Below are positions 249 through 23,084 of a stretch of 25,331 bases of DNA, piece after piece (within the stretch, counting starts at the first letter, position 1; the number at the start of each line of letters is the position of its first letter). A model generated the notes under the pieces. The model made no database searches, was not told where the DNA came from, and saw nothing but the letters and a program-made list of their open reading frames with translations. Made by a program: the position numbers and the translations under genes. Source of the stretch: a virus; IMG/VR virus record IMGVR_UViG_3300006754_000153, positions 1 through 25,331 of that record; one strand, 5' to 3'.

Positions 249-1358
249 TTAATTAATGCTGCTCACCTCCTGTATTACGATCCGATTCAGTACCTGTGCC
301 AGCACCTGATCGTTCACTTCTTTCCTGCCCATCCTGTCCACAATGCAATTCACTGGGACTACCCTGAATTCATGGGGTAAAGGAAGGTTGTTGTCCATCT
401 CTTCAGGTACTAGGTTGAGGACATAGGTGGTGACGTTAGGGCCACGCCTACGCTGCCACTCCACTGCCTGTTTAAAATCTCTGGCACTTTCAAACTCACC
501 ATCACAGAGGATGATATCGATACGAGGCTCACCTATTTTGTTTCGCCTTACCTCGTTGTTGTACATCTGCTCAAGTAGGGGAGCGAGGTTAGTCTGGATC
601 GCATCGCTTTTTAATGGGTCATCTACAGTAATATTCTGAAGATACTTGAATGCCATCTCCTTCCTTGCCTCTCGACCATACTCTCCAGTGTGTTGCTGGG
701 TAATACGATTGAACGTGAAGGCATCATATGTCAGGTATGGATACTGCTTACCTGCAGTCCACAGTTGGAGTAATAGGCTGTTAGTAATCTTACCCATGGC
801 TCGTGAACAGAAGCCTGTCTCTGGCATATGAGTAGAGCCAGAGTCATCCACCGCCAAGTTCAAGTGCTTGCGTACCTCCAGCCGTCCCTTAGTCTCATCA
901 CCCCAGCCCTGCCCATCTACGATGAGGTTGACTGGATCATCCAGTAACTCACCGTCATCTAGGTCAGCCCTTTCCTTGGCCTTGGTTGCTGAGTACAGGG
1001 CATCCAGTAATACCGATGCTGACTTTAATGTAAGTTTATCTACAGCAGCAACGTAACCCTGATTGGCATCTTCAGAGTTAGCTTCCCTTGCTGATTCCCA
1101 GAGCTGATCTATCTCAGCTTTAGTCATGCCCTTTAACTCATCCTCTGCCAGCTTCACAATCTGCATACACAGGTCTTTGTTCTCATGCTGGCGAAGTGGA
1201 TCAAGAATACCCCTGACACGTGTCCTGATATACATATCGGTGAACTCTTTCTTGGTAGTTTGTTTGAGGAAAGTTCTCTCACTCATCCCACGACTACCAC
1301 TACGGTAGTTAATCCTTCCTGAACTTACCTTCCTGTATCCTCCATCATTCTTAGCCAT
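249..1358 (-). CDS. VWA-domain (MIDAS) protein, CobT/MoxR-partner type
   Basis: This 369-residue protein has a C-terminal von Willebrand factor A-like domain. The metal-ion-dependent adhesion site is visible as D171-x-S173-x-S175 (LAVDDSGST). A candidate MIDAS threonine is T256, and the typical later acidic motif is LCDGEFE (D286). The N-terminal half is charged and helical and has no family I can name. In bacteria such VWA proteins work with AAA+ ATPases, for example CobT with CobS in cobalt chelatase, or VWA partners of MoxR. An AAA+ gene of that class lies just upstream in the same direction, separated only by a tiny ORF, so the two probably form one unit. Start: ATG with an AGGAGG site 9 bases upstream. 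The substrate remodelled in a phage context is unknown. Confidence 0.8.
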   Translation of the reverse strand: MAKNDGGYRKVSSGRINYRSGSRGMSERTFLKQTTKKEFTDMYIRTRVRGILDPLRQHENKDLCMQIVKLAEDELKGMTKAEIDQLWESAREANSEDANQGYVAAVDKLTLKSASVLLDALYSATKAKERADLDDGELLDDPVNLIVDGQGWGDETKGRLEVRKHLNLAVDDSGSTHMPETGFCSRAMGKITNSLLLQLWTAGKQYPYLTYDAFTFNRITQQHTGEYGREARKEMAFKYLQNITVDDPLKSDAIQTNLAPLLEQMYNNEVRRNKIGEPRIDIILCDGEFESARDFKQAVEWQRRRGPNVTTYVLNLVPEEMDNNLPLPHEFRVVPVNCIVDRMGRKEVNDQVLAQVLNRIVIQEVSSIN

Positions 1359-1466: not shown

Positions 1467-2540
1467 TTATTCTGCTTTGGCATCTGGGTCTATACTGAGT
1501 GCTCGCCATGCAGTCTTGATGATGACATCAACTGCGTCTATGTCATGCTGGGCATCGATCTTAGTGAGGATAGATTTCCTCATAAGTTCTCTGAATCCCA
1601 CGACTGATCTGCGTGACTTCATAGCGGATGCCATCTTGGCAGCAGCCAGCCCCCTTCGGGGGGATATCTGGTAACCAATACGGTTATCCTTCCATGATTT
1701 GTAGAGGGTGTCAGTCAGGAACACTGCATCGTTAATGAATGTCTTCGCCATGCCATGTGCTTTGAACATGGCAGCCAGTGATTCCCCTGAAAGGGGAGGC
1801 ACTTCGATAGACCAGAACCTGTCACGCAGTGCCTCGTTCATTCGCCTAGTACCAACGTAGTTGGGATTCCTAGTCATGAAGCACCTGAAGTCTGGGTGTA
1901 CCTCGATTGTCTGACCAGCTACCTGAAAGGTAGACCCCACTTGAGCAGGGCGGTCAGTCATACCGTTGATGAATGACATAGCCTCTGGCTCTGCCATGTT
2001 GGCCTCATCGATCAAGGCCCAGTCTCCCTGCTTCGCAGCAGTAGCAAACTCTGCTGCTGTGAAGACAGTCGAGCCAGCTATCAACTCTCGTTGACCTACT
2101 AGGTCACGCTTCCTGAGTCCACCGTCAGCAGTTACCACTGCTAGGTTCTTGCCTAGCTTCGCTGCGAGGTGATGTATAGCTAGAGTCTTACCGCTACCTG
2201 CTGGGCCCATCAACTCAACGTGTCCAATCATGGCAGCAGCATCGAGTTCTTCCAGCCATGGTGGGGTGACGTAGTCACCGTTCACCTCGGACGTTGCCTT
2301 CGGCACATCGGGCCAGATGATTGACTCGCCCTGTTCAGGCGGTGACTGTGGTGCTGACTCTACCTTCGGTGAGTTGACCACTATCCTCGCTGGGGTCTCA
2401 CTTATCCCACCGCATGGCTTGCATTCACAGTCAGCCAGTGCCAAGACAATCTTCGATTTAATCTTGGTCGGCAGCTTATGTGTCTTAGCCAGCTTTCGTA
2501 GCTGATCTATCTCTAGATTCTCCAGTTCAATCGCTCTCAT
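1467..2540 (-). CDS. AAA+ ATPase, MoxR/CobS-like (AAA_5 type)
   Basis: This 357-residue protein has a complete AAA+ core. Walker A is GPAGSGKT (112-119), Walker B is WALIDEAN (174-181), the sensor-1 asparagine lies in FMTRNPN (near 225), and arginine-finger candidates lie in EALRDRF (near 239-241). The layout fits the dynein-related/MoxR/CobS group. The N-terminus (about 5-36) resembles a SAP/HeH-like helical motif, followed by a Cys cluster (C38, C40, C43) and a Pro-rich linker. It probably uses ATP hydrolysis to remodel a protein or complex together with the VWA protein encoded downstream. Start: ATG with GGAGAAG four bases upstream. A candidate promoter lies at 2594-2623. Marine phages, notably cyanophages, often carry CobS-annotated ATPases of this class. 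The client here is unknown. Confidence 0.85.
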   Translation of the reverse strand: MRAIELENLEIDQLRKLAKTHKLPTKIKSKIVLALADCECKPCGGISETPARIVVNSPKVESAPQSPPEQGESIIWPDVPKATSEVNGDYVTPPWLEELDAAAMIGHVELMGPAGSGKTLAIHHLAAKLGKNLAVVTADGGLRKRDLVGQRELIAGSTVFTAAEFATAAKQGDWALIDEANMAEPEAMSFINGMTDRPAQVGSTFQVAGQTIEVHPDFRCFMTRNPNYVGTRRMNEALRDRFWSIEVPPLSGESLAAMFKAHGMAKTFINDAVFLTDTLYKSWKDNRIGYQISPRRGLAAAKMASAMKSRRSVVGFRELMRKSILTKIDAQHDIDAVDVIIKTAWRALSIDPDAKAE

Positions 2541-2593: not shown

Positions 2594-2623
2594 ATTAAAC
2601 CACACCCTTTAGGGTGATGTCAA
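2594..2623 (-). promoter_or_regulatory. Candidate sigma-70 promoter with a hairpin in its spacer, for the AAA+/VWA unit
   Basis: On the minus strand there is a perfect TTGACA (2618-2623), an 18-nt spacer and TTTAAT (2594-2599, five of six consensus matches). The spacer contains CACCC-TAAA-GGGTG (2603-2616), a perfect 5-bp hairpin. Transcription would begin near 2587. The leader before the AAA+ ATG then holds another hairpin, TGTGC-AAAT-GCACA (2570-2583). Confidence 0.5.
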
Positions 2624-2669
2624 AGAAATATTTTTACTGCACCTCCTTTGTTTTAAATTACAGCTGGTA

Positions 2670-2704
2670 TTCACTACTCCTCCTTTAGGAGGAGGAGTAG
2701 TGAA
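2670..2704 (-). terminator. Strong 15-bp hairpin ending the 5106-2710 gene group
   Basis: The arm TTCACTACTCCTCCT (2670-2684) pairs perfectly with AGGAGGAGTAGTGAA (2690-2704) around a 5-nt loop. It starts a few bases after the stop codon of the 2710 gene, and that stop codon itself sits in a second 6-bp hairpin (2705-2719). The minus strand beyond has A/T-rich sequence but no clean U-run. It may act as a terminator or as a 3' end stabiliser. Confidence 0.55.
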
Positions 2705-2709
2705 ACAGT

Positions 2710-3366
2710 CTAAGACTGTGGTTTTTTACAGGCTCTGCAAGCCACATGCCTTGGGTCTGAAGTTTTCACCACCCAGCTAGCTTTGACTGGGAAATTTCCT
2801 GCGTAGCTGACATTCCCCTGCTCATTTATCCTGTGCTCAGCTTGGGTAGTGTCATACACTTTGATCTCAGCAGGGGCGTAGCCCTGTATTCCACGAGCTG
2901 CCCAGTAACTCTGGCCTTGGTGCTTGAGTGTGATGTGAGTATCAGTGTGATCCAGAATCTTAGCTGGTTTGGTAGTGACTCCATCGAATGTGACTACGTC
3001 ACCTCTGACAAACATCCTCATGAATGTTCCCTGTCGTATGATCGGTGTCCTGTCTGAGCCGAAGCTATCGAACCTCGTTTTGTAGTCAGGGATACGATCT
3101 AAATATTCAGACCACTCCTTACGGTCTTCGACCGTATATCCCCACAGTACTCGATATTCTGTCTCATGTGTCGTGACTCCGAAGGAGTCTGTGGTGTAGT
3201 GGTGCGTTGTTACGACTGCACATTCAGTGCCATTCGTATCTACGATACGGAACTCGCCCTTCACAATAGCTAGAGACTTCAGTGAGTCCCCCAGCCTAGT
3301 CACTGTGTCTTCGACACGCCTGATTTCATCATCGCTATAGTCGGCTACGGTAAGTAGTAATTCCAT
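2710..3366 (-). CDS. Hypothetical protein (218 aa)
   Basis: I do not recognise a family. The protein starts MELLLTVADYSDDEIRRVED (acidic helical N-terminus). Its middle has beta-rich stretches, including MRMFVRGDVVTFDG and AKILDHTDTHITLKHQGQ, that could form a small barrel. It ends in a C-x2-C pair (ACRACKK) with no visible second half of a zinc site. The frame also has an ATG five codons upstream, at 3381. I prefer 3366 because GGAGAA lies nine bases before it, and because the two genes upstream in this operon show the same order of hairpin, GGAGAAG-like site and ATG. The TAG stop lies within a perfect hairpin. The coding DNA holds six or more of the short palindromes described in the findings. 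It is the last gene of the 5106-2710 group. Confidence 0.7.
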   Translation of the reverse strand: MELLLTVADYSDDEIRRVEDTVTRLGDSLKSLAIVKGEFRIVDTNGTECAVVTTHHYTTDSFGVTTHETEYRVLWGYTVEDRKEWSEYLDRIPDYKTRFDSFGSDRTPIIRQGTFMRMFVRGDVVTFDGVTTKPAKILDHTDTHITLKHQGQSYWAARGIQGYAPAEIKVYDTTQAEHRINEQGNVSYAGNFPVKASWVVKTSDPRHVACRACKKPQS

Positions 3367-3400
3367 TACTAATTTCTCCATTGTTCGTCCCTTCGGGACG
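3367..3400 (-). promoter_or_regulatory. Hairpin plus ribosome binding site module before the 2710-3366 gene
   Basis: A perfect 6-bp hairpin with triloop (CGTCCC-TTC-GGGACG, 3386-3400) precedes TGGAGAA and the ATG at 3366. The arrangement matches the modules before the next two genes upstream and decides the start codon here. Confidence 0.5.
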
Positions 3401-3470
3401 GCTTGTATGTTCGACCTAGTTGAGGGTCATATTGACCATAAGCAACCTCCTTCCTAGCCTTCGGCTAGTG

Positions 3471-4397
3471 TTAATTCGAATACCCAGAGTCCACCCCCCT
3501 AGCCTTTAGGCTAGAGAGGGCTTTGGCTGACTGGCTGCCCTTCGGCTGTGTCCCATGTATCAAGAGTCCGAAGGACTCTTTGCCGAACACTGCATGACTA
3601 TCGTCATGGTCTATCTCCAGTCCTTCGGACTGGGCTTGCTCTGGGCTGAACACCACCTTGGCAACCTTCAGTCCCTTTAGGGACTGGATCAGGTGGTCGT
3701 ACTTCCCACCTTCACTGGCTGTGAGAACGAAGTTCTCAGGCAGTGGCTGCCATGCCTGACGTAGCTTTGCTACGTGGTGCAGTGACTTGGTATAGGCGTA
3801 GCCTATAACTCTAGGCATCGGCTGGTTTTGTGGCAGGGTGGTGGCCCGAAGGGCCATAGCCCAGCCTTCTAAGTACTTCGTACTGTAGAAGTCACCGCCG
3901 ACATGAATTCTTATGATGACTACGTCATCAGGCTTGAACTTCTTCGTAGCATCTTTGATGCTAGCGAGGATCAGTGCAGCGATAGCATACGCTGCATTTT
4001 CTCCAATTAACTTACGTAGTAAGTTAAAGTTGTGCCAGTTTTGCTGCCTGACGTTCTCGTATCTCTCAGCACTAGCCTCGAAACACCTGAACTTTAGTTC
4101 AGGACTATCCCAGATTTTGCCAGTCACTGGATCGGCGAATGCTAAGCATTCGTTCGCTCCGGGACAGCTCCAACCTGCTGGCAGTGTCAGGGTAAGTACT
4201 CTTACCCTAGACTCTGGTATCTCCAGCTCCGCTGCTGCTGCTTTTCTCAAAGCTTTCAGCTTTGAATTGCCATTGCCGAAGCTGAGCAACTCGCCTTTCT
4301 TCGGATCAATCCCACCTTCGGTGGGTATGTCCGATGTCCAGCTCTGAGTGGCCTTGTCGTACTGCACCTTCGGTGCACTGTATGGGTTGTCGTTCAT
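3471..4397 (-). CDS. GP88-family phage protein
   Basis: The 308-residue product matches what I know of the phage 'gene product 88' family, first described in mycobacteriophages. The recognisable motifs are LPAGWSCPGANECLAFAD (73-90) with Cys78 and Cys84, LKFRCFEAS (101-109) with Cys105, WHNFNLLRKL (121-130), RIHVGGDFYS (163-172) and IGYAYTKSL (198-206). The ordered Cys and His residues suggest metal or cofactor binding, but the biochemical role of the family is not established. The length is normal for the family. The ATG has AGGAGAAG five bases upstream, with a 7-bp hairpin immediately before that. The gene carries about twenty short perfect palindromes, several lying exactly on conserved motifs. 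The neighbours upstream and downstream are unknown proteins in the same operon. Confidence 0.85.
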   Translation of the reverse strand: MNDNPYSAPKVQYDKATQSWTSDIPTEGGIDPKKGELLSFGNGNSKLKALRKAAAAELEIPESRVRVLTLTLPAGWSCPGANECLAFADPVTGKIWDSPELKFRCFEASAERYENVRQQNWHNFNLLRKLIGENAAYAIAALILASIKDATKKFKPDDVVIIRIHVGGDFYSTKYLEGWAMALRATTLPQNQPMPRVIGYAYTKSLHHVAKLRQAWQPLPENFVLTASEGGKYDHLIQSLKGLKVAKVVFSPEQAQSEGLEIDHDDSHAVFGKESFGLLIHGTQPKGSQSAKALSSLKARGVDSGYSN

Positions 4398-4427
4398 GTT
4401 TTCTTCTCCTTCACCCCTTCGGGGTGA
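4398..4427 (-). promoter_or_regulatory. Hairpin plus ribosome binding site module before the GP88 gene
   Basis: TCACCCC-TTC-GGGGTGA (4411-4427, 7 bp, triloop) abuts and slightly overlaps the AAGGAGAAG site (4403-4411), followed by AAAAC and the ATG at 4397. The hairpin fills the whole gap to the stop codon of the upstream gene (4429). Confidence 0.55.
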
Positions 4428-4428
4428 C

Positions 4429-5106
4429 TTATTTAATTAGCTTGTAACCCATTGGCTTCATCTCTCCAGTCTTGGCGACTTGGACATACAGCGAAGCTGC
4501 ATGTTTTCCAGTCGGAACAGCTCCGCTGTTACTAGCTGCCTCGATGGCTTCTCGCTTGGTACTAGCGTAGCTAGTCTCGCCGTTGTCACCGTTGGACATC
4601 GTGACTACCGTTGTCCACTTTCCCCTGTAAGGGGAATCTGGGTAAGTGTCCTTGAAAATTTCCAGCTTGCTGATCCACACCTTCGGTGTGGACTTGGCCT
4701 TGGATTTCTTGGACTTCGTCACCTTCGGTGACGATTTGGCCTTGGCTTTGGTCTTCGCTTTCCCCTTCGGGGAAGTTTTCTTGGCCTTGACCTTGACTCC
4801 GAAGGAGTCACAGCTTCGGATTCTCTCGGCTGCTGCAAGAGCTTCGCTCTTGTCAGTCTCGAAGTGGTCGGCTGGAAAGTAGCGTTTTTCGTTTATGTAA
4901 ACATAAACGCAGTACTCCTCGAACTCGTTGTCGTAGACAACCCTAGTACCTACGGTACTAGCTGGCTCCCAGTCAGCGATAGTGGCGAATTTCTTAGAGT
5001 TACGTAGTAACTCTCTACCCTCAACCCACTTGACGAACAGTGTCCCCCTCAACCCCTTCGGGGTTGAGTTGTGCTGTACCTTCTCGACTGTTTTTGCTGT
5101 TCCCAT
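4429..5106 (-). CDS. Two-domain Lys-rich protein of unknown function (225 aa)
   Basis: No family is recognised. Two globular parts flank a strongly basic linker (about residues 104-143) made of K/A/S/P and containing repeated SPKG, SPKV and TPKV. The globular parts look like diverged copies of one small domain: the first carries FETDKSEALAAAERI and the second YASTKREAIEAAS, each after a beta-rich stretch (YCVYVYINEKRY and KWTTVVTMSNGD). The linker suggests nucleic-acid binding, by inference only. The repeated PK pairs are encoded by CCGAAG at the centre of hairpins, so the DNA palindromes and the peptide repeats are linked. The ATG has AAGGAGAAG three bases upstream and a hairpin before it. 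It is the first gene of the minus-strand operon, with a promoter candidate at 5230-5258. Confidence 0.7.
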   Translation of the reverse strand: MGTAKTVEKVQHNSTPKGLRGTLFVKWVEGRELLRNSKKFATIADWEPASTVGTRVVYDNEFEEYCVYVYINEKRYFPADHFETDKSEALAAAERIRSCDSFGVKVKAKKTSPKGKAKTKAKAKSSPKVTKSKKSKAKSTPKVWISKLEIFKDTYPDSPYRGKWTTVVTMSNGDNGETSYASTKREAIEAASNSGAVPTGKHAASLYVQVAKTGEMKPMGYKLIK

Positions 5107-5132
5107 TTTCTTCTCCTTGCCCCTTCGGGGCA
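5107..5132 (-). promoter_or_regulatory. Hairpin plus ribosome binding site module before the first operon gene
   Basis: TGCCCC-TTC-GGGGCA (5118-5132) directly adjoins AAGGAGAAG (5110-5118), followed by AAA and the ATG at 5106. The layout is almost identical to the module at 4398-4427. Confidence 0.55.
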
Positions 5133-5487
5133 GCTTGTGTTTGTGGCGATAGACTCGCCGATTAGTTGGGACGTAGTCCCATTTCAGCTCTTGGATTTAC
5201 CCTTCGGGTAGAGCTGGCCTCCGCTGCCTATCTTACGTAGTAAGACGGCCGATGTCAAATCCTAGGCACGACAGGAAGGATAATCAACATTCTGGACACC
5301 TGAAAAAGGAGATCAGGTCAGACAGCGAAGCTGTCTGCGGTCAGATCGGTCTGGAAAAGTCAGCAGCGAAGCTGCTGGCGGTTCGGCTGGACTGAGGCCG
5401 AAGGGGGCATAGCTTGGCTTTCTCTCTCTAAGAGTGCTTATACCCTTGACAGAATTTTTTTGCTAAAAGATCGTTCTGATCACGTTC
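5133..5487. other. Non-coding leader and upstream region with hairpins
   Basis: I see no convincing gene here. The region holds hairpins at 5145-5159, 5167-5181, 5198-5210 (enclosed by an outer CAGCTC/GAGCTG pair at 5185-5190 and 5211-5216), 5231-5245, 5319-5337 and 5361-5377. The last two share the core CAGCGAAGCTG, and an ACCTGA/TCAGGT pair lies just before them. An isolated plus-strand TTGACA at 5446-5451 has no good -10 box at normal spacing. A seven-T run follows at 5455-5461. The part from 5281 to 5400 could be a structured RNA or a replication or regulatory site, but nothing identifies it. Confidence 0.4.
5230..5258 (-). promoter_or_regulatory. Candidate sigma-70 promoter of the 5106-2710 operon, overlapping a hairpin
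   Basis: The minus strand has a perfect TTGACA (5253-5258), a 17-nt spacer and TAAGAT (5230-5235, four of six matches). The palindrome TCTTAC-GTA-GTAAGA (5231-5245) covers most of the -10 box and half the spacer. Transcription would start near 5223, giving a leader of about 115 nt with several further hairpins before the ATG at 5106. Confidence 0.45.
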
Positions 5488-5563
5488 TGTTTCAAAGAAA
5501 CATCTTGAAATTTCTCCGAAACAACCCCTCTGTTTCACTGAAATTTCTTCTGTTTCAGTGAAA
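5488..5563. promoter_or_regulatory. Operator-like cluster of GTTTC/GAAAC palindromes
   Basis: The divergent region contains TGTTTC-AAA-GAAACA (5488-5502), then TTTCACTGAAA (5533-5543) and TTTCAGTGAAA (5553-5563). The last two are each near-perfect palindromes of form TTTCA-n-TGAAA and are also exact reverse complements of each other, so they can form one 11-bp stem with a 9-nt loop. The spacing and symmetry are typical of repressor sites between divergent operons, but no regulator gene is visible in the window. Confidence 0.5.
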
Positions 5564-5574
5564 GTAAGACAGTT

Positions 5575-5623
5575 GTGTTTCACCCTTATACCCCTTTAGG
5601 GGGTATATAAGGGAGTGAAACAC
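5575..5623. promoter_or_regulatory. 49-nt nested hairpin at the start of the plus-strand genes
   Basis: GTGTTTCAC (5575-5583) pairs perfectly with GTGAAACAC (5615-5623). Inside, CCTTATACCCC pairs with GGGGGTATATAAGG with small bulges, around CCCC-TTTA-GGGG. The outer arms carry the same GTTTC/GAAAC motif as the neighbouring palindromes. No U-run follows, so an ordinary terminator is unlikely. A protein-binding site, attenuator or 5' end structure for the plus-strand transcript is more plausible. Confidence 0.5.
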
Positions 5624-5710
5624 TCTTACTGTCAGATACTGTATGATGTTGAAATAAATGAAGAAAGACCGACTGTATTTAGCGGACTCTCTAGGAGGCA
5701 AGATAGTCCA

Positions 5711-7451: not shown

Positions 7452-7937
7452 ATGAGAAAGAGTAAGGATGAAACAAAAGCCTCACAGGACGCTTGGCTTA
7501 CTGCGTTTGGTCAAGTAGGTACTGTACTCAGTGCCTGTAAGGCTGCAAATGTTGCTCGATCTACTTATTACAACTGGATTGAGAACAATATTTATAATTT
7601 TAAAGAGAAAAAAAATGTTGCTTGGGAAATATTTAGAGAATCTTTACAGGATTTAGCACTGGAAAGGATTAGGGGGCAGGGGCCAAGAGATAATCCTGTA
7701 CTACTTATGTCATATCTTAATGCATTTGTGCCAGAATACTTTAAACGTGACAGCTCTACTGGTGGTGATGCTGCAAAAGAGTTCATGGCAGAACTTAAAA
7801 AGCTACGAAACATGCAGGAAGAGTTACGTAGTGGTAAAAAAGAAACAGTTGAAGAAGATTCTGCTAAAAAAAGAGCTATAGATGAGGTAGAAAAGATACT
7901 CTCAAGGCAGATGGAATCTGATGACAACAGAGATTAA
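7452..7937 (+). CDS. terS: Terminase small subunit
   Basis: The 161-residue protein has an N-terminal helix-turn-helix (about residues 19-43, including VLSACKAANVARSTYYNWIE), which fits DNA recognition by a small terminase. A helical middle and a charged C-terminal tail (from about 110) would serve oligomerisation and contact with the large subunit. The gene lies directly upstream of the large terminase and overlaps it by 17 bases, the standard arrangement. An AGGAAT-type ribosome binding site precedes the ATG. The assignment relies on the fold pattern, size and context together. Confidence 0.8.
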   Translation: MRKSKDETKASQDAWLTAFGQVGTVLSACKAANVARSTYYNWIENNIYNFKEKKNVAWEIFRESLQDLALERIRGQGPRDNPVLLMSYLNAFVPEYFKRDSSTGGDAAKEFMAELKKLRNMQEELRSGKKETVEEDSAKKRAIDEVEKILSRQMESDDNRD

Positions 7938-9267
7938 TCCAGATGTAACAGATTACATCTTCTCTAAGTTGGATTTTAATCCAACAGAGAAACAGGAACC
8001 AATACTCAACTGCCGTAAGCGTTTCATATTGGTAGCTGGTGGTGAACAAGCTGGTAAATCTATGGTGGCTTCCAAGTATCTGGTGTCACGATTCCTAGAA
8101 ACTGATGAAGCTGGACTATATTGGCTGGTAGCTGCTGACTATGAAAGGACTAGAGCTGAGTTTGAGTACCTAACACAGGACTTTGCAGCACTGGGAGTAC
8201 TGGCTGAAGTAACTAAACGAGTTGACCCCGGCAGAATTGTACTGGCTGATGGTACTAGAATAGAAACCAAGTCAGCTAAAGACCCAAGAACTCTGGCTAT
8301 GAGAGCACCTAATGGCATTATTGGGTGTGAGGCTAGCCAGTTAGACCTTGAAACCTTCCATAGATTACGAGGTAGGTGTGCTCCAAAGCGTGGGTGGATG
8401 TTCCTTGGTGGTACATTTGAAGGTTCACTGGGGTGGTATCCACAGTTATTTCAGCAATGGCAACATGGTGGAGATGATGAACAGTCGTTTTCTCTGCCTA
8501 GCTATTCTAATCAGTACTTATATCCCGGTGGTAGGCAAGACCCTGAGATACTCAGGCTTCAAGCTGTAGCCTCTGACGACTTCTTTATGGAGCGTATTGA
8601 AGGTATACCTACACCACCACAGGGATTAGTATTCGGAGAGTTCAGGCCTGACATACATATCAGTGATGAAGCCAAGTGGTCAGCAGGTGATCCTGTTTAT
8701 TTATGGATAGACCCCGGTTATGCTGGTGGTTATGCAGTAGAAGTAGTACAGGATATCAATGGTCAGATATGTGTAATAGACGAGATATACGAACAAAACC
8801 TTATTACAACAGAGATGATCGACATTGCAAAGTCCCGACCATGGTGGAAAGATGTCCAAGGTGGGGTAATCGACATAGCTGGATACCAGCATCAGGCTAT
8901 GTCTGCCCCAGCAGAAATATGGTTAGAGGAAACTGGGGTATATCTTGCTGCTCAGAAAGTTAGAATTAACGAGGGAACTGAAAGACTGAAGTCATTTTTA
9001 AAGCCCGATCCTCTTTCTAACATGCCAAAAATAATATTTAACCCAAGTTGTCGTGGGATTCTGTCAGAGTTTGGGGCAGAACCAAATCCATTTACAGGAC
9101 AAACCCAAGCCTATCGCTGGAGAACTGATCGAGATGGTAATATAGTGGGAGAGACTCCCGAAGATAAATACAACCATGGCGTTAAAGCCGTAGTTTATGG
9201 GCTTGTAGATAGATTTGGATACGGTCATTTACGCAACAACTCGTTTATTAAAGTTAAGAGGTGGTAG
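7921..9267 (+). CDS. terL: Terminase large subunit (packaging ATPase and nuclease)
   Basis: The 448-residue protein has Walker A GGEQAGKS (40-47), a Walker B-like GIIGCEA with catalytic glutamate near 137, and the coupling motif LGGT (162-165). The C-terminal RNase H-like nuclease shows LWIDPGY (D264), VIDEIY (D286), VIDIAG (D318) and a closing acidic motif in EDKYNHGVKAVVYGL. It drives DNA into the procapsid and cuts concatemers at the portal. Its length is usual for compact large terminases. It overlaps the small subunit gene, and the portal gene starts with GTG immediately after its stop. Confidence 0.93.
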   Translation: MTTEINPDVTDYIFSKLDFNPTEKQEPILNCRKRFILVAGGEQAGKSMVASKYLVSRFLETDEAGLYWLVAADYERTRAEFEYLTQDFAALGVLAEVTKRVDPGRIVLADGTRIETKSAKDPRTLAMRAPNGIIGCEASQLDLETFHRLRGRCAPKRGWMFLGGTFEGSLGWYPQLFQQWQHGGDDEQSFSLPSYSNQYLYPGGRQDPEILRLQAVASDDFFMERIEGIPTPPQGLVFGEFRPDIHISDEAKWSAGDPVYLWIDPGYAGGYAVEVVQDINGQICVIDEIYEQNLITTEMIDIAKSRPWWKDVQGGVIDIAGYQHQAMSAPAEIWLEETGVYLAAQKVRINEGTERLKSFLKPDPLSNMPKIIFNPSCRGILSEFGAEPNPFTGQTQAYRWRTDRDGNIVGETPEDKYNHGVKAVVYGLVDRFGYGHLRNNSFIKVKRW

Positions 9268-14074: not shown

Positions 14075-17000
14075 ATGTCTCCAGAAGATAGACGTAAAGC
14101 AGAAGCATGGTGGTCAAGGCAACTTGAAAACTTTCCACAACTAGCACAAAAATATGGAACTCAAGTTCCTATAGCTCAAGATGGTCAGATTCCTAGAAAT
14201 GTAATTGCAGATGTACAGACTGCTCGTCAGGCACAAACCCCTTTAGTTGGGCAAGGCACTCCTCTTCCCGGTCAACGACAGATCGTTCCACCAGAACCAG
14301 TTAACTGGCGTGAAGTAGGAAGAGATATAACTTCTGGCATAGCAAATCTACCCACCATGGGCCTTAATTTAATTCCCGGTCTTAATCCTCAACAAGCAAC
14401 AGAAGATGTTACATCTAAAATGTTTGGGGTAGAACCCAGACCTTTTGATATTCCAGAAGATGCAGGAAAATTAAGAACAGCACTTGATCCTATAATGCCT
14501 ACCATATCAGGTATTGGAACTATTGGATCAAGATTCTTAGACCCTCTTGCTGCTGGTGCTTGGCAGTTGGGGGGAGAACTAGGTATGGGTGATCCACATG
14601 GTCAAGTCAGTGCAAGGAAAGAATTAAGAGATGCAGGATATGGGCCATTAGAATCTATTACTGGTGCTTATGAACAGGCAGATATTCCTTGGTGGCAAAA
14701 AATACCTGTTGAAATAGCTACCAGTCCTGAAGAACTAATACCCGGTATTGGTATGTATGCAGGTGCTACCAAACTTGTTGGAAGACAACTAGCAAGACAA
14801 ACAGCAGAAGAAGTAGCAGAAGAAGCAGCTCCAGTTGTAGCTAGAGAAGTAGCAGAAGAAGTTCCTGTTGTAGATGAAGTTGTACAACCAGAAGTTGTAC
14901 AAGAACCAATTCAATTAGGGCTGACCCCACGAGGGGGAGCACAGTACGCTTTTGATGAAACAGCACCTGCTCGCATTGCTGAAGATATCCCTGTACCACA
15001 AATACAGGAAGTAACTTCAACAGCTCAAAGTCGTATAGATCAGATCATAGAAGATGTTACTGATACGTATGATGTTAGGGGTATGAACATAACAAAGGTT
15101 GGTACTAGTCCTAATAAAGTAAAAGAAGCTGGACAGGAAAAAGTAAGAGAAAGATTTGGACAGCTAATAACTGGTAACTTAAATGATGCACAGGCTAAAA
15201 GAGCCAGTGACTATATATCTAAACAAACTGGGGTAGACCCTGAAGAGATAAGAAGATTAGCAGGTGAAGCTGGAGTACAGGAAACATTCGGCCCACAACT
15301 AACACCAGACCAACAACTAGTAGAAACTATTGCTGAACAAATAGACAGTGCATGGAACAGGCGTACAGAGTTTAGTCCTGAAATAGAAACACAACTAGAT
15401 AATTTAATTACCTTTAGGCAAGAAGGTAAGAATCTATTACTTGGATTTAAGTCTCATTACGGCAGAATTAGAAATCAAGTAGCTAAAGAAGTAGGTATGT
15501 CTCCTGCTGAACTTGAGAAATATATAGACAATATGTCTCAAGGTACATTCCCACAACCTGATCCTTTCCCCGGAGGTGTACCTTCACCCGGATGGAAAGT
15601 ACAACAGCTTGTAGGTGATCCTCAAAGACAAAAAGAAATAGACAGATTTGCAATACAGTTAGAGATGCCTCTACTACCTAAAGGATCAAAACCTAAAGAG
15701 GTAGAAGAAAGGCTTGCTCTTGCTAAGAACGAAGGATATCCAATTCCTGCTGATCGTCCGGGTACTACTAATGTATCTGCTGGCACACAGTTAGCACGAT
15801 CTTCAAAAGATAAACTTCTTCACGTTGTTAATGATTTAGAAACATCATTAAGAGAATTAATAAATCCTGCCGAACAAGCACATATATTAGATAAGAATGC
15901 AGGAACAACATTAAAAGATATATTAAGTGCAGCAGGAGCTAAAACTGCTATAGGAAGAAATCTTATTACCCGTTATGAAGGTGCAGTTAATGCACGTATG
16001 AATGACATACAAATAGATGCTGTACAAGGAGATAAGCTACTAGAAGGTTTAGGGTTTGGGGCAAGAGAAAGAGGAAGGTACTTTAGTACTGAAAGAAGTT
16101 TTGTTCTTAATCAGATTGACATAGGAACTGCCACTGCTCCCGGCCCTATTAGAGTTTTATACCGTGCATTACATGGTGAAGTTGGTGGACAAGAGTGGTC
16201 AGAAGTTACCAGTGAATTGTCAAAACAAATGTGGATAACAGGAGAAAATCTTCCAGCATCTGTATTGGCACATCCAGCAATGGCCCCAGAAAAGGCAGCA
16301 CAAAGAGAAGAGTTGTTTGATTTCCTGAGAGAGATGACTGACATGGAGTCAGCCATGAGAATAGACTTCGATCCAAAGATGGGATTCATTAGAGAAGATT
16401 ATTTTCATCGTGGATGGAAACCTGTAGAAAAGTTAGGGGACGATGTTATTAGAGGTAACACACAGAGGTTAGCTGAAACACCTTCATTTGCAAAAGCTCG
16501 TACTACTCTACGGTTCTGGCAATTAGAAGAAGCAGGGTTTGAGCCACTGTTCTGGAATCCTGTACATCAAGCTATTAACTCCTCACAGATGGGAATTAAA
16601 GATAGGCTACAAAAAGAACTTGTTGAGTATATGCAAAACCCTTTAGTTAATGTAGCACACGCAGTAGGTGATCAAGATGAAGCTCTTCAAAGATTAAAAT
16701 CCTTATATGGTATGGAGTTCAGGGTTCCTAAAGTAGGCCCAGCATTTGAGGGTAAGGGATTTAAAGTAACTGATGAGCTGCCAGCAATAGAAGGTGTTGG
16801 TCAATCTGCAACTCAGGATGTTTTTAGAGAAGGTATGTATGCAGTTCCAACAGGAGTAGCTGATACGCTTGAGCAGATATGGAGAGGAGGAACTACAAAT
16901 TTCAATAAGGTTTTAAATATATCAATACCTATGACAGATAAAACTTACCCGGTTAATCTTGGTAAGTTAATTGATGCAATGGTATTCATACCTAAAAGAA

Positions 17001-19420
17001 TTAAGCTGTTTGCTTCTCTTTTCCAGATCACAGACTTTTCACGAAGACTTGGTATAGGAAGTACTCATGCAATAGTTGACGATATATTTAGAAATATGAA
17101 TTCTGGTATGTCTCCTAAAGAAGCATTTGAATCTGGAGTTGAAGTAGCTGGTGGATTCAAGCAACATGCAGGTGCTGCTGGGAAGGGTTGGTGGAATATG
17201 TGGGGAGATTATTTCCAAGCAGGTAAATCAACTCATTACAGAAATCTATTAAGTAGCAGGGAGACTACAGGAATCGAAGCTGTATTAGAAGGCGGTGGAA
17301 GACAGGGACAAATTAGCTGGAACAATCTAGTAAGAAATGGTCTTAATGTCAGGGACTTAACTATATTGCCCAGAGAAGACATGCTAAGAATAGTTGATGG
17401 TATTTCTCAGAATACTAACTTCCCACTCAAGGTGGGAAGATACATAAAAGAATTAGAGTACTCATCAAGAAGAGGTTTGTTTGATAGGGTTTATCCAGCA
17501 GCTATCATGACTGATGTTAAGTACAACTTAATTCCTATGGCTATGAAAGCATACCCAAATGCTACTGATGATCAGATCATGGCCCTCGTTGCTAAACAGG
17601 CAAACATGAAGTACTCAACATTGCTTCGATCTCAAAGTGTATTTAATCAGACTGCAAGAGAAATTCTTTCAAGACTGGCATTCTCAATCAATGAAAACGA
17701 ATCATTGATTAGACAGATGACTGGAGCTTTCGCAGGTAGTGATACTAGATTCTGGAGAACATACTGGGTTAGTGCAGGTGCATTCTTTATTCTTGCAGGT
17801 AATGCAATTCATATGGCTACCGGGCTAGTCACAGAGGGAAAACCAAAGCCATTACCTGTAGATAGATATGTTCCTTTTTATCGGAAAGAAGGATTAATGC
17901 CTATAGGATTTAAATCTAGGTTTTTAAATCCTGATATCCCATTGAGAACACGATCTGGTGAAAGAGCAATGATGGATATGTTAGGTCAGTTAGATACTTT
18001 CGGCAGGATACTAGGTGGTTTTGATTTCATTAGCCAAAGACAAAGTGCACCTGTAGGAGCACTTCGTCACTTGTATTCAAAGACTGATTTCTATGGAAGA
18101 GATACAGATCAGTTTGGGTGGGCAGGGACAGCGTTGCAGTTTGCTTATGACGTAGGTGTACCTATAGGTATGGGTGAAGCTGTTATGGGAGCAACAAGTA
18201 AATTCGCAGGAGATGTACCACTTCCTTCTATGGGTACATTTATTGGGCCTGATACAACTCTAGGAGATATATTACCTGTATCAGAACAAGCTCTTGGTTT
18301 GGGTGGAATGATTGCAGAGGCAACAGGAGAAAACATTAAAGCCCAATCAGTAGTAGATATGGAAACAAGAATGATAAAGAATACTTTCCCTGATGGTGTG
18401 CCTACAGGTATAGATGAAAAAATTAAAAAAATTAAACCTTGGGCACAAATAAGAATGAAAGATTTAGATTCTGATGAGAAGTTAAAGGTTTTAAATGATC
18501 CTGCTAACCAACACTTTATAGAAGAATTAAATAGACAGTCTAAAGAAAAAGCTGATATGGATAACATATGGCATGAAGAAAAGCAGGATAGAGATGAGAT
18601 TAAATCAGGAAGGATGTTAGCAGAAGATAATTTAGTTAACAGGTATGACACACAGGCAAACAACAATATAGCTTGGGATCCAAAAGGATTTAGAGAAGAA
18701 GTAAGTAGGATATCGCTGGAAGCTCGTGCTAGATCAGAAATGGTTTCTGATAAATATGCAGATAATCTACAAAAGAAGATTAGTAACGAACCTTGGAGTC
18801 GAGAAAAAGAAGCAGAAGAAAAAGTTAAGAGGCCTATAAGATGGGCTGAATACAGATACTACAACCTATTTAAAAAGCATGGTACAGATTTTGAGCAAAT
18901 GGATTGGGATGCTTTTGATGCAGACTTTGCAGCAGAAAGAGCCTTGTGGGGTACAGAATTAACTGAAAAATTTGATGCTGTGCAAAGACAGAAGTCTGCT
19001 GAGAGGCATAACCCAAGAGTACAACAGTACTATGACGCTATGGATTTACTGGAACAAGTTGGCTGGTTTGGTAAGGAAGAAGACGATAGATTAACCGAAA
19101 TGATTACACAGTATCATGATCGTATGCCTAAAAGAAAAGATGGCTCTGGGTTAAGAGAAGAATGGGACAAGTGGCTTAAAGGTGGGACTCAAGAAAGAAC
19201 TAGGATAGAAAGAAATAGTTACTATAATGTAACTATTAAATTACTAAAACAAGAAAGAGACAGGGCAAGACAAACAATACTGATGAGTCCTGAACATGGC
19301 AAACAGGTTGATAAAGCAGTCATAGAATGGTTTGGTAGAGTTCCATCACATCAGGAAAACTTACAGTTATATTATAATTTGTATGAAGTTATGCCAAGAA
19401 AAATGCAACTAGTTCGATAG
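14075..19420 (+). CDS. Very large virion protein, presumed internal/ejection protein (1781 aa)
   Basis: The ATG has an AGAGGT-type site upstream. The protein has a Pro-rich N-terminus, a Gly/Pro-rich segment with IANLPTMGLNLIPGL, and an acidic Val/Glu repeat linker (around 245-280, EEVAEEAAPVVAREVAEEV). A long mixed alpha-helical body follows, with one convincing hydrophobic segment near residues 1230-1250 (AGAFFILAGNAIHMATGL). The C-terminal third is strongly charged and helical. I see no lysozyme, RNA polymerase or peptidase motif. Size, position between connector-like genes and the scaffold, and a possible membrane segment suit a protein packed in the capsid and ejected with DNA, or a polyvalent protein. 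This is an inference. Confidence 0.6.
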   Translation: MSPEDRRKAEAWWSRQLENFPQLAQKYGTQVPIAQDGQIPRNVIADVQTARQAQTPLVGQGTPLPGQRQIVPPEPVNWREVGRDITSGIANLPTMGLNLIPGLNPQQATEDVTSKMFGVEPRPFDIPEDAGKLRTALDPIMPTISGIGTIGSRFLDPLAAGAWQLGGELGMGDPHGQVSARKELRDAGYGPLESITGAYEQADIPWWQKIPVEIATSPEELIPGIGMYAGATKLVGRQLARQTAEEVAEEAAPVVAREVAEEVPVVDEVVQPEVVQEPIQLGLTPRGGAQYAFDETAPARIAEDIPVPQIQEVTSTAQSRIDQIIEDVTDTYDVRGMNITKVGTSPNKVKEAGQEKVRERFGQLITGNLNDAQAKRASDYISKQTGVDPEEIRRLAGEAGVQETFGPQLTPDQQLVETIAEQIDSAWNRRTEFSPEIETQLDNLITFRQEGKNLLLGFKSHYGRIRNQVAKEVGMSPAELEKYIDNMSQGTFPQPDPFPGGVPSPGWKVQQLVGDPQRQKEIDRFAIQLEMPLLPKGSKPKEVEERLALAKNEGYPIPADRPGTTNVSAGTQLARSSKDKLLHVVNDLETSLRELINPAEQAHILDKNAGTTLKDILSAAGAKTAIGRNLITRYEGAVNARMNDIQIDAVQGDKLLEGLGFGARERGRYFSTERSFVLNQIDIGTATAPGPIRVLYRALHGEVGGQEWSEVTSELSKQMWITGENLPASVLAHPAMAPEKAAQREELFDFLREMTDMESAMRIDFDPKMGFIREDYFHRGWKPVEKLGDDVIRGNTQRLAETPSFAKARTTLRFWQLEEAGFEPLFWNPVHQAINSSQMGIKDRLQKELVEYMQNPLVNVAHAVGDQDEALQRLKSLYGMEFRVPKVGPAFEGKGFKVTDELPAIEGVGQSATQDVFREGMYAVPTGVADTLEQIWRGGTTNFNKVLNISIPMTDKTYPVNLGKLIDAMVFIPKRIKLFASLFQITDFSRRLGIGSTHAIVDDIFRNMNSGMSPKEAFESGVEVAGGFKQHAGAAGKGWWNMWGDYFQAGKSTHYRNLLSSRETTGIEAVLEGGGRQGQISWNNLVRNGLNVRDLTILPREDMLRIVDGISQNTNFPLKVGRYIKELEYSSRRGLFDRVYPAAIMTDVKYNLIPMAMKAYPNATDDQIMALVAKQANMKYSTLLRSQSVFNQTAREILSRLAFSINENESLIRQMTGAFAGSDTRFWRTYWVSAGAFFILAGNAIHMATGLVTEGKPKPLPVDRYVPFYRKEGLMPIGFKSRFLNPDIPLRTRSGERAMMDMLGQLDTFGRILGGFDFISQRQSAPVGALRHLYSKTDFYGRDTDQFGWAGTALQFAYDVGVPIGMGEAVMGATSKFAGDVPLPSMGTFIGPDTTLGDILPVSEQALGLGGMIAEATGENIKAQSVVDMETRMIKNTFPDGVPTGIDEKIKKIKPWAQIRMKDLDSDEKLKVLNDPANQHFIEELNRQSKEKADMDNIWHEEKQDRDEIKSGRMLAEDNLVNRYDTQANNNIAWDPKGFREEVSRISLEARARSEMVSDKYADNLQKKISNEPWSREKEAEEKVKRPIRWAEYRYYNLFKKHGTDFEQMDWDAFDADFAAERALWGTELTEKFDAVQRQKSAERHNPRVQQYYDAMDLLEQVGWFGKEEDDRLTEMITQYHDRMPKRKDGSGLREEWDKWLKGGTQERTRIERNSYYNVTIKLLKQERDRARQTILMSPEHGKQVDKAVIEWFGRVPSHQENLQLYYNLYEVMPRKMQLVR

Positions 19421-19431
19421 GAGGAACAAGG

Positions 19432-20223
19432 ATGGTTAGTGAAAATACAGAGCCAGTACAAGCACCGTTACCAGAGGAGCCAGCACCACAGGCAGAGATT
19501 GAAAGCAATCCACTTATTGCTGAAGTAGATAAGTTAAATAGTATTCCTGATGTAATAGAAGAAACTCCTGCCCCAGAAACAGAAGTAGTAACACCAGTAG
19601 CAGAGACACCTCCGCAACCACAGACTCCTGCTGAGCAGGTACTTTCTGCACCAGAACCACCTGTGCAACCTACAGTTCCACAACAACAAATGTCACCTGA
19701 ACAGATACAGAGACTACAGCAAGATCAAATGCAGTTTCAACAGGTACAGGCACAGGCACAATTGCAGAATGAAGCACAAAGATATCAGCAACAGTTAGAA
19801 CAGCAGGGATATCTTCCTGATCAGGCACAATCTATAGCTAGACAGCATATGCAAAGTCGTGCTGCACAAATGGATCAAGCCAGACAAAATGAATTTAATC
19901 AACAGGTATTACTTGGTAAACAAGCAGCATCAGAACATTTTGCCAAACAATATAATCTTACATTTGAAGACATGGCTACTCTTAGAATGTCTAATAGTCC
20001 AGAGCAAATGGAACAGGTTGCAAAAAAGATATCTGCGGATAGAGAAAGAGATGCAGAATTAGCAAGGTTAAAGCAACAACAAGTACCACCACAGCAGTTT
20101 GATAACTCTCAAGGTGCTCCAGAAGTTGCATCTAATGATGATGCATGGTTAGATAGGTACATATATAATGGTGATAGATCGCCAAATGCGGTAGCTGCTG
20201 CAAGAAGGGCGAGCGGTCAATAG
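19432..20223 (+). CDS. Putative capsid scaffolding protein (263 aa)
   Basis: It lies directly upstream of the major capsid gene with an AGGAGG site before the ATG. The N-terminal third is acidic and Pro-rich (EEPAPQAEIESNPLIAEVDK). The middle is Gln-rich and predicted helical (QQQMSPEQIQRLQQDQMQFQ and following), and the C-terminus is charged with an Arg/Ala end. Gln/Glu-rich helical proteins in this position normally act as assembly chaperones for the procapsid. No protease motif is visible. The assignment is based on position and composition. Confidence 0.7.
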   Translation: MVSENTEPVQAPLPEEPAPQAEIESNPLIAEVDKLNSIPDVIEETPAPETEVVTPVAETPPQPQTPAEQVLSAPEPPVQPTVPQQQMSPEQIQRLQQDQMQFQQVQAQAQLQNEAQRYQQQLEQQGYLPDQAQSIARQHMQSRAAQMDQARQNEFNQQVLLGKQAASEHFAKQYNLTFEDMATLRMSNSPEQMEQVAKKISADRERDAELARLKQQQVPPQQFDNSQGAPEVASNDDAWLDRYIYNGDRSPNAVAAARRASGQ

Positions 20224-20243
20224 CAAGCCAAGGGAGGTAACCT

Positions 20244-21110
20244 ATGGCACAGACAGCCACAACTGGGAATCTGGAAAATGCCCAGCGGATAATCCTCGCA
20301 GCAGCGAGGTACACAGAGGAGCACAATGCTCCTGCTATGGCTCTTATAGAGTCATTTTCCTTACCCAAAGGGTCAAAGCAAGTGACCGTACCAAAGGTAG
20401 GTCAGATGTCTATGAGTGACTTGACTGATGGTCAAGACATAATTGACGAGGAAGAGATTGGTATGACCACAGTTGACCTTACGGCATCTGAGGTTGGAGC
20501 CAAGGTTATCCTTACTGACAAACTGGTCAGACAAGCTGCTGACAATGTTATGAGTATTGTTGGTCGTCAGCTTGGTGATGGTATGGCACGAAAGAAAGAT
20601 ACAGATGTACATGCTCTGTACTCTGGACTGAATGGTGGAACAACACTTGGTGTTGCTGGTGGAGCTGTAACACTGGCTAAGATTGCTGGTGCAATTGCAT
20701 ATACTAAAGCTAACAAGTTTGGCTCTCAGGTATATATACTCCATCATCCTAATGCGGTATATCAGATAGCTGCTACTGCTGTTACAGCATCTACAACTTA
20801 CCCTGTACCTAATGGGTGGTCTGAAGATTTGCTTGGTAACTTCTGGAGTGGGCTACGACCACTAAATGGTGTTCCAATATTTGAAGATGGAAACCTTTCA
20901 GTAGATAGTAGTGATGATGCTATCGGTGTTATAGCTGATAAGTCTGCACTTGCTGTACTGAAGTCTGTAGATACTAGAACTGAGCGACAAAGAGATGCTT
21001 CTCTTAGAGCTACTGAACTGGTTATGACTGCTGACTATGGCGTATTTGAACTTGATGACAGTAGAGGAGCACCACTTACTTATGATGCTTCTGCTCCTGC
21101 AACAAGTTAA
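20244..21110 (+). CDS. Major capsid protein, HK97-type
   Basis: The 288-residue protein has the features of a compact HK97-fold capsid protein. An N-terminal arm is followed by SFSLPKGSKQVTVPKVGQ (E-loop-like). Next come VGAKVILTDKLVRQAADNVM (spine helix region), a beta-rich middle with QVYILHHPNAVYQIAA, and RPLNGVPIFEDGNL near the A-domain. The C-terminal part has RATELVMTADYGVFELDDSRG. It forms the icosahedral shell. A GGGAGG site precedes the ATG, and a scaffold-like gene lies just before it. Capsid identity rests on pattern and context. Confidence 0.85.
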   Translation: MAQTATTGNLENAQRIILAAARYTEEHNAPAMALIESFSLPKGSKQVTVPKVGQMSMSDLTDGQDIIDEEEIGMTTVDLTASEVGAKVILTDKLVRQAADNVMSIVGRQLGDGMARKKDTDVHALYSGLNGGTTLGVAGGAVTLAKIAGAIAYTKANKFGSQVYILHHPNAVYQIAATAVTASTTYPVPNGWSEDLLGNFWSGLRPLNGVPIFEDGNLSVDSSDDAIGVIADKSALAVLKSVDTRTERQRDASLRATELVMTADYGVFELDDSRGAPLTYDASAPATS

Positions 21111-21658: not shown

Positions 21659-22432
21659 ATGGCGTTCCCATTAACAGTAAACTTGGGTTACGGACAAGAA
21701 AAAACAGAGACTTCAGGAAAGAGACATAAACTTGGAACTAGGGCAACCACACCTGATGGTAGAGTATTTTACTATGCTCGATGTGGCAGTGCTGCTATTA
21801 CAACAGCAGGAATGATAGTAGATGCAGCAACGACATTTACTGAAGCTGCTCATGATATGGACATACCCCCTACTGCTGCTCATAGTGTTGGTGATACAAC
21901 AATTAGTTTAGAAGTACCAACTACAGACCTAACCAAAGATAGGTATGCAGATGGATATCTTATCTTCAATGATGGGCCGGGAGAAGGTGAAGTATACAGA
22001 ATTAAAGGTCACCCTGCTCACGATGCATCTGACGACAACACAGTTATCATCACCCTTGATGAGGAAGACGGTATTAGAACCGCTCTGACTACTTCTACAG
22101 AGGCACAGCTAGTTGAAAATCCCTATTTAGGGGTAAAGATTATTGATGGTGACGGCACTATGGAAACTGGTGCTTTGGGTGTAACAGTTATACCTATGAC
22201 AGCCAGTTACTATGGATGGATACAGACCGCAGGTATAGGTAGCGTAGCTATTGGTGCAGTGGTAGGTATTGTTGGTGACGGTTTGCAGATATCTCAGGCA
22301 TCAGGTGAGGATGGAAGAGCAGAACTCTACGACCTTTCTGGTGAGGATGACCTACAGTCAATAGGTACTGCAATTGTTATTCCTTCTATAGACACAGACA
22401 AGCAAGCGTGTCTTCTCACCATTAGATACTAA
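21659..22432 (+). CDS. Putative capsid decoration or head-fibre protein (257 aa)
   Basis: An AAGGAGG site seven bases before the ATG indicates strong translation. The protein is beta-rich and Gly/Thr/Asp-rich, with DGRVFYYARCGSAAITTAGM near the start and YGWIQTAGIGSVAIGAVVG (about 182-200), then GDGLQISQASGEDGRAELYD. This layout resembles small structural proteins often encoded after the capsid gene in uncultured phages, where they decorate the shell. The assignment is by analogy. Its stop overlaps the next ATG. Confidence 0.6.
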   Translation: MAFPLTVNLGYGQEKTETSGKRHKLGTRATTPDGRVFYYARCGSAAITTAGMIVDAATTFTEAAHDMDIPPTAAHSVGDTTISLEVPTTDLTKDRYADGYLIFNDGPGEGEVYRIKGHPAHDASDDNTVIITLDEEDGIRTALTTSTEAQLVENPYLGVKIIDGDGTMETGALGVTVIPMTASYYGWIQTAGIGSVAIGAVVGIVGDGLQISQASGEDGRAELYDLSGEDDLQSIGTAIVIPSIDTDKQACLLTIRY

Positions 22433-22809
22433 TGGTAGCCACTCCTAAAGAAACAGAACTATGGACTCCACCGGGGGTAACCCATAAAAGGGTTATCCCT
22501 GTGGGGTATAACTATGAAACTGGTGGTCAGATATTTGAGTACCAGTTTCTAGTACATGATGAAGTTACTAATAGGAAGCAACAGTTTAGAGTTCTGGTTG
22601 ATGACCAAACATCTAAGGCTCACATTGAAGAAATGGTGGGCAATGCGTTTGATAGATGGCTGACTGATGTGAGGATGAGACACAACAAGCCAGCTCCAAC
22701 TCCAGAACAGAGAAAAGAAATAGGAAGAATCCTAGAACAAATTAGAGTTAATAGGAACAAACGTAAAGAAAGTAGTAACAATAAAATATACTACAAAGGT
22801 CTACGATAA
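22432..22809 (+). CDS. Hypothetical protein (125 aa)
   Basis: The ATG overlaps the preceding stop (TAATG). The N-terminus is Pro-containing (WTPPGVTHKRVIPVGYNYE). The middle is beta-rich (QIFEYQFLVHDEVTNRKQQF), and the C-terminal half is helical and strongly basic (EIGRILEQIRVNRNKRKE). No family is recognised. It lies among head genes, and a structural or assembly role is inferred from context only. It contains one hairpin near 22478-22495. Confidence 0.6.
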   Translation: MVATPKETELWTPPGVTHKRVIPVGYNYETGGQIFEYQFLVHDEVTNRKQQFRVLVDDQTSKAHIEEMVGNAFDRWLTDVRMRHNKPAPTPEQRKEIGRILEQIRVNRNKRKESSNNKIYYKGLR

Positions 22810-22820
22810 GGAGGACATCT

Positions 22821-23009: not shown

Positions 23010-23073
23010 AGGTAAAGGTACTTACGGTAAACAAGTAGGAAGACCGCCTAAGAAAAAGAAACCTAAGAAATAG
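23002..23073 (+). CDS. 23-residue basic peptide
   Basis: The ATG lies inside the last codons of the coiled-coil gene, in a different frame, and the TAG ends 11 bases before the next ATG. The product begins MPKGKGTYGKQVGRPPK and is Lys-rich to its end. Short peptides with the start MPxGKGTYG and a VGRPPKK tail recur in phage structural regions, which supports a real gene. The role is unknown; binding to nucleic acid or an acidic partner is possible. Confidence 0.6.
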   Translation: MPKGKGTYGKQVGRPPKKKKPKK

Positions 23074-23084
23074 AGGTGTAACCA

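Follow-up and report, generated by a model that had tools for sequence, protein, structure and literature searches.

Among the closest described counterparts of the locus reported here are the early promoters of phage N4 and the target hairpins of diversity-generating retroelements (DGRs). The N4 promoter hairpins have a 3-base loop with a sheared G:A pair and extrude, through the action of gyrase as infection begins, at a superhelical density of -0.035 (PMC4496689); promoter P1 includes GTTGC-GAA-GCAAC (PMC12633501). The DGR target hairpins require negative supercoiling, and the sequence of their stem is free (PMC3240598). The C(GNA)G motif is an extraordinarily stable DNA mini-hairpin, unusually heat-stable and nuclease-resistant (PMC4686876). 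Here, we describe a dense array of short perfect palindromes (mini-hairpins) in a stretch of virus DNA of 25,331 nucleotides (IMG/VR record IMGVR_UViG_3300006754_000153, positions 1 to 25,331), called the window below. The array lies at 2603-5377, in an operon that reads leftward, and it fits no described phage system in the open-access literature searched. The original prediction, made from the sequence alone, likewise knew of no such system; most subscription papers lay outside the search that found no such description.

Excess of Palindromes

Perfect palindromes with loops of 3-4 nt were scanned in 2603-5377 at stem thresholds of at least 5, 6, and 7 bp, with 300 dinucleotide shuffles as the control. 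The region contained 54 palindromes at the first threshold (shuffle mean 5.1, maximum 12), 45 at the second (mean 1.44, maximum 7), and 28 at the third (mean 0.36, maximum 3), which bears out the large excess of tight-loop palindromes originally claimed. Once a few register duplicates had been dropped, 43 hairpins with stems of at least 6 bp were left, and 30% of the bases of the region were hairpin. The array and its surroundings are laid out as follows.

2603..5377, no strand: mini-hairpin array, 45 palindromes of stem at least 6 bp and 54 of at least 5 bp, loops 3-4 nt, median edge-to-edge gap 35 nt
5118..5377, minus strand: array leader, upstream of the first gene, with hairpins at 5118, 5167, 5198, 5231, 5319, and 5361
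4429..5106, minus strand: lysine-rich protein of 225 aa, 13 hairpins of stem at least 6 bp, weak phrog_7884 match
3471..4397, minus strand: GP88-family protein (PF17338), 18 hairpins of stem at least 6 bp, kept with compensatory changes in relatives
2710..3381, minus strand: protein of 223 aa with no family match, 4 hairpins of stem at least 6 bp and 7 of at least 5 bp
1467..2540, minus strand: AAA+ protein (MoxR/CobS-like, phrog_249, AAA_5), thin tail of the array with stems of at least 6 bp at 1516, 1783, 1919, 2092, 2127, and 2265
249..1358, minus strand: 369-aa gene, called VWA in the original prediction, no Pfam or PHROG match, hairpin density at chance
5378..5614, no strand: junction of the leftward hairpin operon with the late operon, which reads rightward; repeats and inverted repeats
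7452..9267, plus strand: small and large terminase subunits, the late block that adjoins the arrays in most of the phages

Synonymous-codon shuffles, in which protein and codon usage were preserved, were done gene by gene. The 18 hairpins of the gp88-like gene compare with a shuffle mean of 0.78 (maximum 4), and the 13 of gene 4429-5106 with a mean of 0.62 (maximum 4). The six of the AAA+ gene form a weaker tail (mean 0.58, maximum 4), and the single hairpin of gene 249-1358 is at chance level (0.58). A similar number of palindromes in shuffles of this kind had been named as the outcome that would overturn the observation; since the shuffles gave far fewer palindromes, it stands. Counted leftwards from the junction in steps of 500 bp, hairpins with the signature loops described below numbered 11, 9, 8, 12, 6, 1, 3, 4, 0, and 0. 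To the right of 5378 there were zero hairpins with signature loops, and stems with ordinary loops were mildly in excess (28 vs 11.5). The original prediction had correctly placed the palindromes both within and between the genes of one operon, with a lower density in the AAA+ gene and close to none in the VWA gene or the late module, but it proposed no mechanism and had missed the strict rule for loop and closing pair and the occurrence of arrays in unrelated phages.

Structure of the Hairpin Unit

The stems are 6-7 bp long, perfect, and abruptly ended, with base pairing past the stem end at the random level (0.20-0.28 in the pooled arrays). The arms are unrelated, so the hairpins are not a single dispersed repeat family, as had been noted at the outset. 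The loop is constrained: a C-G closing pair surrounds GNA or its complement TNC or, after these, AAA, on one strand or the other. In five distinct relatives, C-G closed 119 of 138 triloops (stems of at least 6 bp), and the loops were mostly GAA, TAC, TTC, GTA, and AAA; unrelated phage DNA had a flat loop distribution. Sixteen pooled arrays yielded 371 distinct triloops, among them 116 GNA and 113 TNC, which is one motif read on either strand.

Some of these arrays were found through the pattern CCTTCGG and are thus ascertained for their loop, so the loop count was repeated without them. In the family of the window and the phage HMO-2011, neither found by loop pattern, 135 of 145 triloops were G.A, T.C, A.A, or T.T, the closing pair was C-G in 121, and G.A or T.C occurred in 108 (66:42, p 0.03). 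After removal of the searched core from the arrays found by pattern, G.A or T.C occurred in 91 of 195 loops (51:72 before removal), and the strand preference of GNA was not consistent between the two sets.

Internal non-Watson-Crick pairs comprised 19 G.T and 16 A.C, so G.T was not preferred, and the 198 tetraloops included four GNRA and four UNCG. The hairpin unit is best read as DNA, not RNA, because GNA lies on either strand, G-U is not favoured, and cUUCGg and GNRA loops are rare. A comparison of ViennaRNA energies for DNA and RNA by loop type was discarded, as many C-G closed triloops score equal and the energies do not discriminate.

The units are about 50 bp apart. Gaps in the window were more even than random (coefficient of variation 0.56 vs 0.79, p 0.001), and those shorter than 12 nt made up 2% vs 23% at random. 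The contigs G005, G009, L010, and L011 were also evenly spaced (p 0.001 to 0.03). Helical phasing of the hairpins gave weak peaks only, with no clear period.

Conservation and Codon Choice

Selection on DNA structure very probably maintains the array. The pooled signature hairpins comprised 286 perfect ones (1.0 expected) and 91 with one mismatch (14 expected); in 75 of the latter the mismatch was at the two outermost pairs, and few were internally decayed. Between the window and L006, which is 3.6% divergent outside the stems, 20 of 21 gp88 hairpins were intact and one was broken, with two pairs double-changed. At 22% divergence (L009), 16 of the 21 were still perfect, with seven compensated pairs vs five one-sided breaks. 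Loop changes in gp88 stayed within the stable set (GAA-AAA, TAC-TCC).

In the AAA+ gene, which is almost hairpin-free in G002, the hairpins of the window sit where G002 and L087 encode an identical or almost identical peptide with no hairpins, and both arms have changed. For example, PPLSGE is written CCT CCC CTT TCA GGG GAA in the window, and PPLSGD is CCA CCA TTG TCA GGT GAT in G002. The identity of the AAA+ proteins was 0.82 in hairpin codons and 0.76 elsewhere. To judge from these alignments, the hairpins of this gene were gained by mostly silent changes. The gp88 hairpin codons fit hairpin-free homologues nearly as well as other codons do (BLOSUM 2.13 vs 2.45, p 0.10). The loop centre falls on codon position 2 in 46 of 71 gp88 loops, and in that phase third positions pair with first. 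The array is written into the genes largely via silent codon choices.

Distribution in Other Phages and in Cellular DNA

Arrays occur in relatives of the window, in unrelated contigs, and in HMO-2011. Among the relatives of the window, the array goes with an accessory cassette (gp88 and the 4429 gene). Where the cassette is absent, namely in the syntenic sisters G002 and G003 and the related G004 and G006, signature hairpins are few or none; G003 retains about six near the leader.

IMG/VR was scanned for CCTTCGG triples, and 117 windows among the matches listed were scored. At least 10 further unrelated contigs (G013-G022) carry local arrays, at GC contents of 42-68% and with differing gene content: AAA+/VWA pairs in G013 and G020, AAA+ in G014, and lysine-rich proteins in G015-G017 and G022. 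In G013, G014, G015, G017, G019, and G022, the array lies upstream of the large terminase and begins 1-3 kb from it, mostly in divergent orientation; the distance is 4-7 kb in G016, G018, and G021, and no terminase was found in G020. In nearly all bearers, the array occupies the start of the operon adjoining the late/terminase block, is densest there, and thins with distance. AAA+/VWA genes are present in the window, G013, G014, and G020, but their role as a necessary partner was rejected: the pair is also common in array-free phages, and AAA_5 was matched in just two of 10 unrelated records.

The terminase of G022 led to HMO-2011 (GU557055), a cultured podophage of Candidatus Puniceispirillum marinum. 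Its region at 53.5-55.3 kb plus 1-0.7 kb contains 41 hairpins with stems of at least 5 bp (shuffle 5.1, maximum 11), and its gene at 54168-54785 contains 16 vs 1.4 in synonymous shuffles; the loops obey the loop rule less strictly. The HMO-2011-like isolates CRP-1, CRP-2, CRP-9, CRP-212, CRP-738, HTVC103P, HTVC115P, and ctYwJ313 were array-free in the stretches read, and the surroundings of AAA+, VWA, and GP88 homologues from isolates held no arrays. Among 118 listed pattern matches in cellular contigs, only two windows reached at least 10 hairpins/kb (L395 and L339), both short and with repeated arms.

Several further sequences were observed beside these arrays. HMO-2011 has five copies of AGTCCG-4nt-CGGACT, at 53877, 54807, 60, 1260, and 1926, with the loop ACAG or its inversion CTGT; they form a true repeat family within and adjoining the array. 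The bacterial contigs L339, L369, L303, L397, and L395, from metagenome-assembled genomes, have short clusters of cGAAg hairpins, with repeated arms in L339, L369, and L395 and with a single stem type bearing the loops TTT, AAA, and GAA in L303. Hairpins code for acidic repeated TEGG/DATEGG linkers in the VWA proteins of G013 (22402-24261) and G020 (19370-20953), and for lysine-rich KPKA linkers in G015, G016, and G022; the array therefore appears to shape disordered protein segments.

Genes and Junction of the Window

The leader hairpins at 5118..5377 are conserved in G001, and their loops on the plus strand are, in order, TTC, GTA, TTC, GTA, GAA, and GAA. In all three cassette genes, a hairpin precedes the ATG by 4-13 nt. 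The product of 4429..5106 gave no Pfam match and a poor predicted structure of low confidence; its linker coded by hairpins is SPKGKAKTKAKAK..STPK. The GP88 model (pLDDT 84.8) gave unconvincing, middling fold matches, the best having a Z of 6.5 with radical-SAM enzymes. The modelled fold resembles a TIM barrel, with invariant Cys78, Cys84, and Cys105 and an invariant IDHDDSH.

The junction contains TCTGTTTCA.TGAAA in three near-copies (5485-5563), an 11-bp inverted repeat, and a near-perfect long inverted repeat at 5578-5625 with a TTTA loop. These copies and the 5578-5625 repeat, which lie between the divergent operons, are a likely operator or terminator. The loop of the junction hairpin at 5488-5502 is AAA in the window and is inverted to TTT in G001. 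A giant protein of 1781 aa, for which no family match was found, is encoded at 14075-19420, between the portal-side genes and the capsid gene; its counterparts in sister phages are 28-50% identical.

Possible Function of the Array

We tentatively favour an explanation in which incoming early-region DNA would be supercoiled by gyrase and transcription, so that the hairpins extrude. The extruded hairpins could be a distributed sink for torsional stress or could be sites recognised by shape, not sequence, and the early region would be kept open for expression. N4 promoters of like geometry and the DGR target hairpin extrude under supercoiling, and by analogy the hairpins of the arrays should be able to extrude from double-stranded DNA at ordinary negative supercoiling. 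As for the broader proposal, that unrelated tailed phages carry in their first operon a dense, even, supercoil-extrudable, synonymously coded mini-hairpin array by which the early genome is controlled or protected through shape, we consider the chances to be about even.

Several points weigh against this account. Torsion alone leaves the hairpin-free late side of the junction unexplained, and a few dozen extrudable sites are, by our own estimate, too many for torsion over 3 kb to extrude simultaneously. Extrusion at the array is argued by analogy, and the early nature of the operon is read from its layout. No partner protein common to all the array phages was found, with AAA_5 in two of 10 unrelated records. 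In addition, the evenness of spacing was not significant singly in G013-G017 and HMO-2011, and G020 was not even at all.

The main rival is protection or folding of single strands, in which the array would lead the genome into the cell or become single-stranded during resection or replication. Hairpins every ~50 nt on either strand would stall exonucleases or position a single-strand-binding protein. The arrays adjoin the terminase block, a plausible genome end, and fade inwards, GNA is carried by either strand with gaps of ~35 nt, and GNA mini-hairpins resist nucleases (PMC4686876). However, the contigs G001, G002, and G003 continue through the junction, contig ends are not piled up there (though contig ends are uninformative on the genome end), and the array of G020 spans up to ~10 kb. 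We regard protection as unlikely.

The loop class is that of the N4 promoters, and a structure-specific phage or host protein, e.g., an unrecognised virion RNA polymerase (vRNAP), a recombinase, or an architectural protein, might bind the hairpins by shape as the N4 vRNAP does. Such a reading is rather improbable given ~50 sites in both orientations, with neither conserved flanks nor start-site spacing, and given that no common partner protein was found. RNA_pol (PF00940) was matched in none of 11 fragmentary records, although the profile matched zero control genomes too, and the giant open reading frames matched no RNA polymerase when searched against Pfam and PDB sequences.

The palindromes might also be a mutational by-product, made and repaired by template switching between arms during replication, with no need of a function. 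Template switching homogenises arms and inverts spacers (PMC8604942), and the intergenic junction provides one such inversion between the window and G001, AAA to TTT at 5488. Yet none of 57 loop differences in intact homologous gp88 hairpins was an exact inversion, and the asymmetry between copied and template arms, although trending in the expected direction, was not significant (p 0.25). The AAA+ gene hairpins appear to have arisen by silent changes in both arms, internally decayed hairpins are few, the spacing is even, and the array is limited to one cassette, all of which makes this origin doubtful. A role for RNA structure in the stability, translation, or protection of the early mRNA, which would suit an array on the transcribed strand of a single operon with hairpins just before the start codons, is very unlikely, as GNA and TNC are about equally frequent, G-U is untolerated, and the triloops are not GNRA/UUCG tetraloops.

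If the broader proposal is true, several phage groups keep a second, purely structural DNA code over their genes, selected one codon at a time and located at a shared place in the genome. The old question of a role for short cruciforms in living DNA could then be put to a direct test that goes beyond the N4 promoters, because the isolate HMO-2011 has an array and synonymous recoding can remove hairpins while leaving the proteins untouched. Array regions also bias analyses of codon usage, selection, and RNA structure, and assemblies may break there.

Comparison With Known Systems

Template-switch quasi-palindromes resemble the array in that perfect inverted repeats and compensatory changes are produced. 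They differ in that they should come with inverted spacers, altered amino acids, and decayed remnants, of which just one spacer inversion was seen here.

Repetitive extragenic palindromic (REP) elements, the GTAG- or CGTC-tagged palindromes of REP-associated tyrosine transposases (RAYTs), are likewise many-copy small hairpins, some of them genic. However, REPs are families of similar sequence and are mostly extragenic, whereas the hairpins described here have unrelated arms and are mostly genic. The REP assignment is not supported: no recurrent GTAG/CGTC-tagged family was present, the arms all differ, and conserved flanks are lacking. A RAYT/Y1 transposase (Y1_Tnp) was matched in none of 14 fragmentary records, with control matches in 5 genomes.

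The DGR target hairpin or cruciform (BPP-1 type) shares a stem of free sequence, 7-10 bp in DGRs, and has a small conserved purine-rich loop. It occurs once per target, next to a variable repeat, and has a sense-strand GRNA tetraloop, unlike the arrayed triloops found here on either strand. The sense-strand GRNA tetraloop was not seen and no reverse transcriptase was found (RVT_1 matched in none of 14 fragmentary records, with control matches in 3 genomes), and this reading is likewise unsupported.

The N4 vRNAP early promoters (P1-P3) consist of three hairpins at fixed positions around the start site, whereas ~45 hairpins lie here within 2.8 kb, in both orientations and inside genes. Fixed bases at a set distance from the transcription start mark the N4 type, and no conserved bases flank the 31 GNA/TNC hairpins of the window. 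Given both orientations, the missing flanking motif, and the failure to find a polymerase in fragmentary records, there is no support for a reading as N4-type promoters proper. The likeness lies in the unit itself: a short stem, a 3-nt loop, a sheared G.A, and a C-G closing pair. The N4 stem is partly free in sequence, forms in DNA under negative supercoiling, and is used at the start of infection, and the window hairpins have the N4-type geometry, with a 5-7 bp stem, a 3-nt loop, G.A, and C-G closing.

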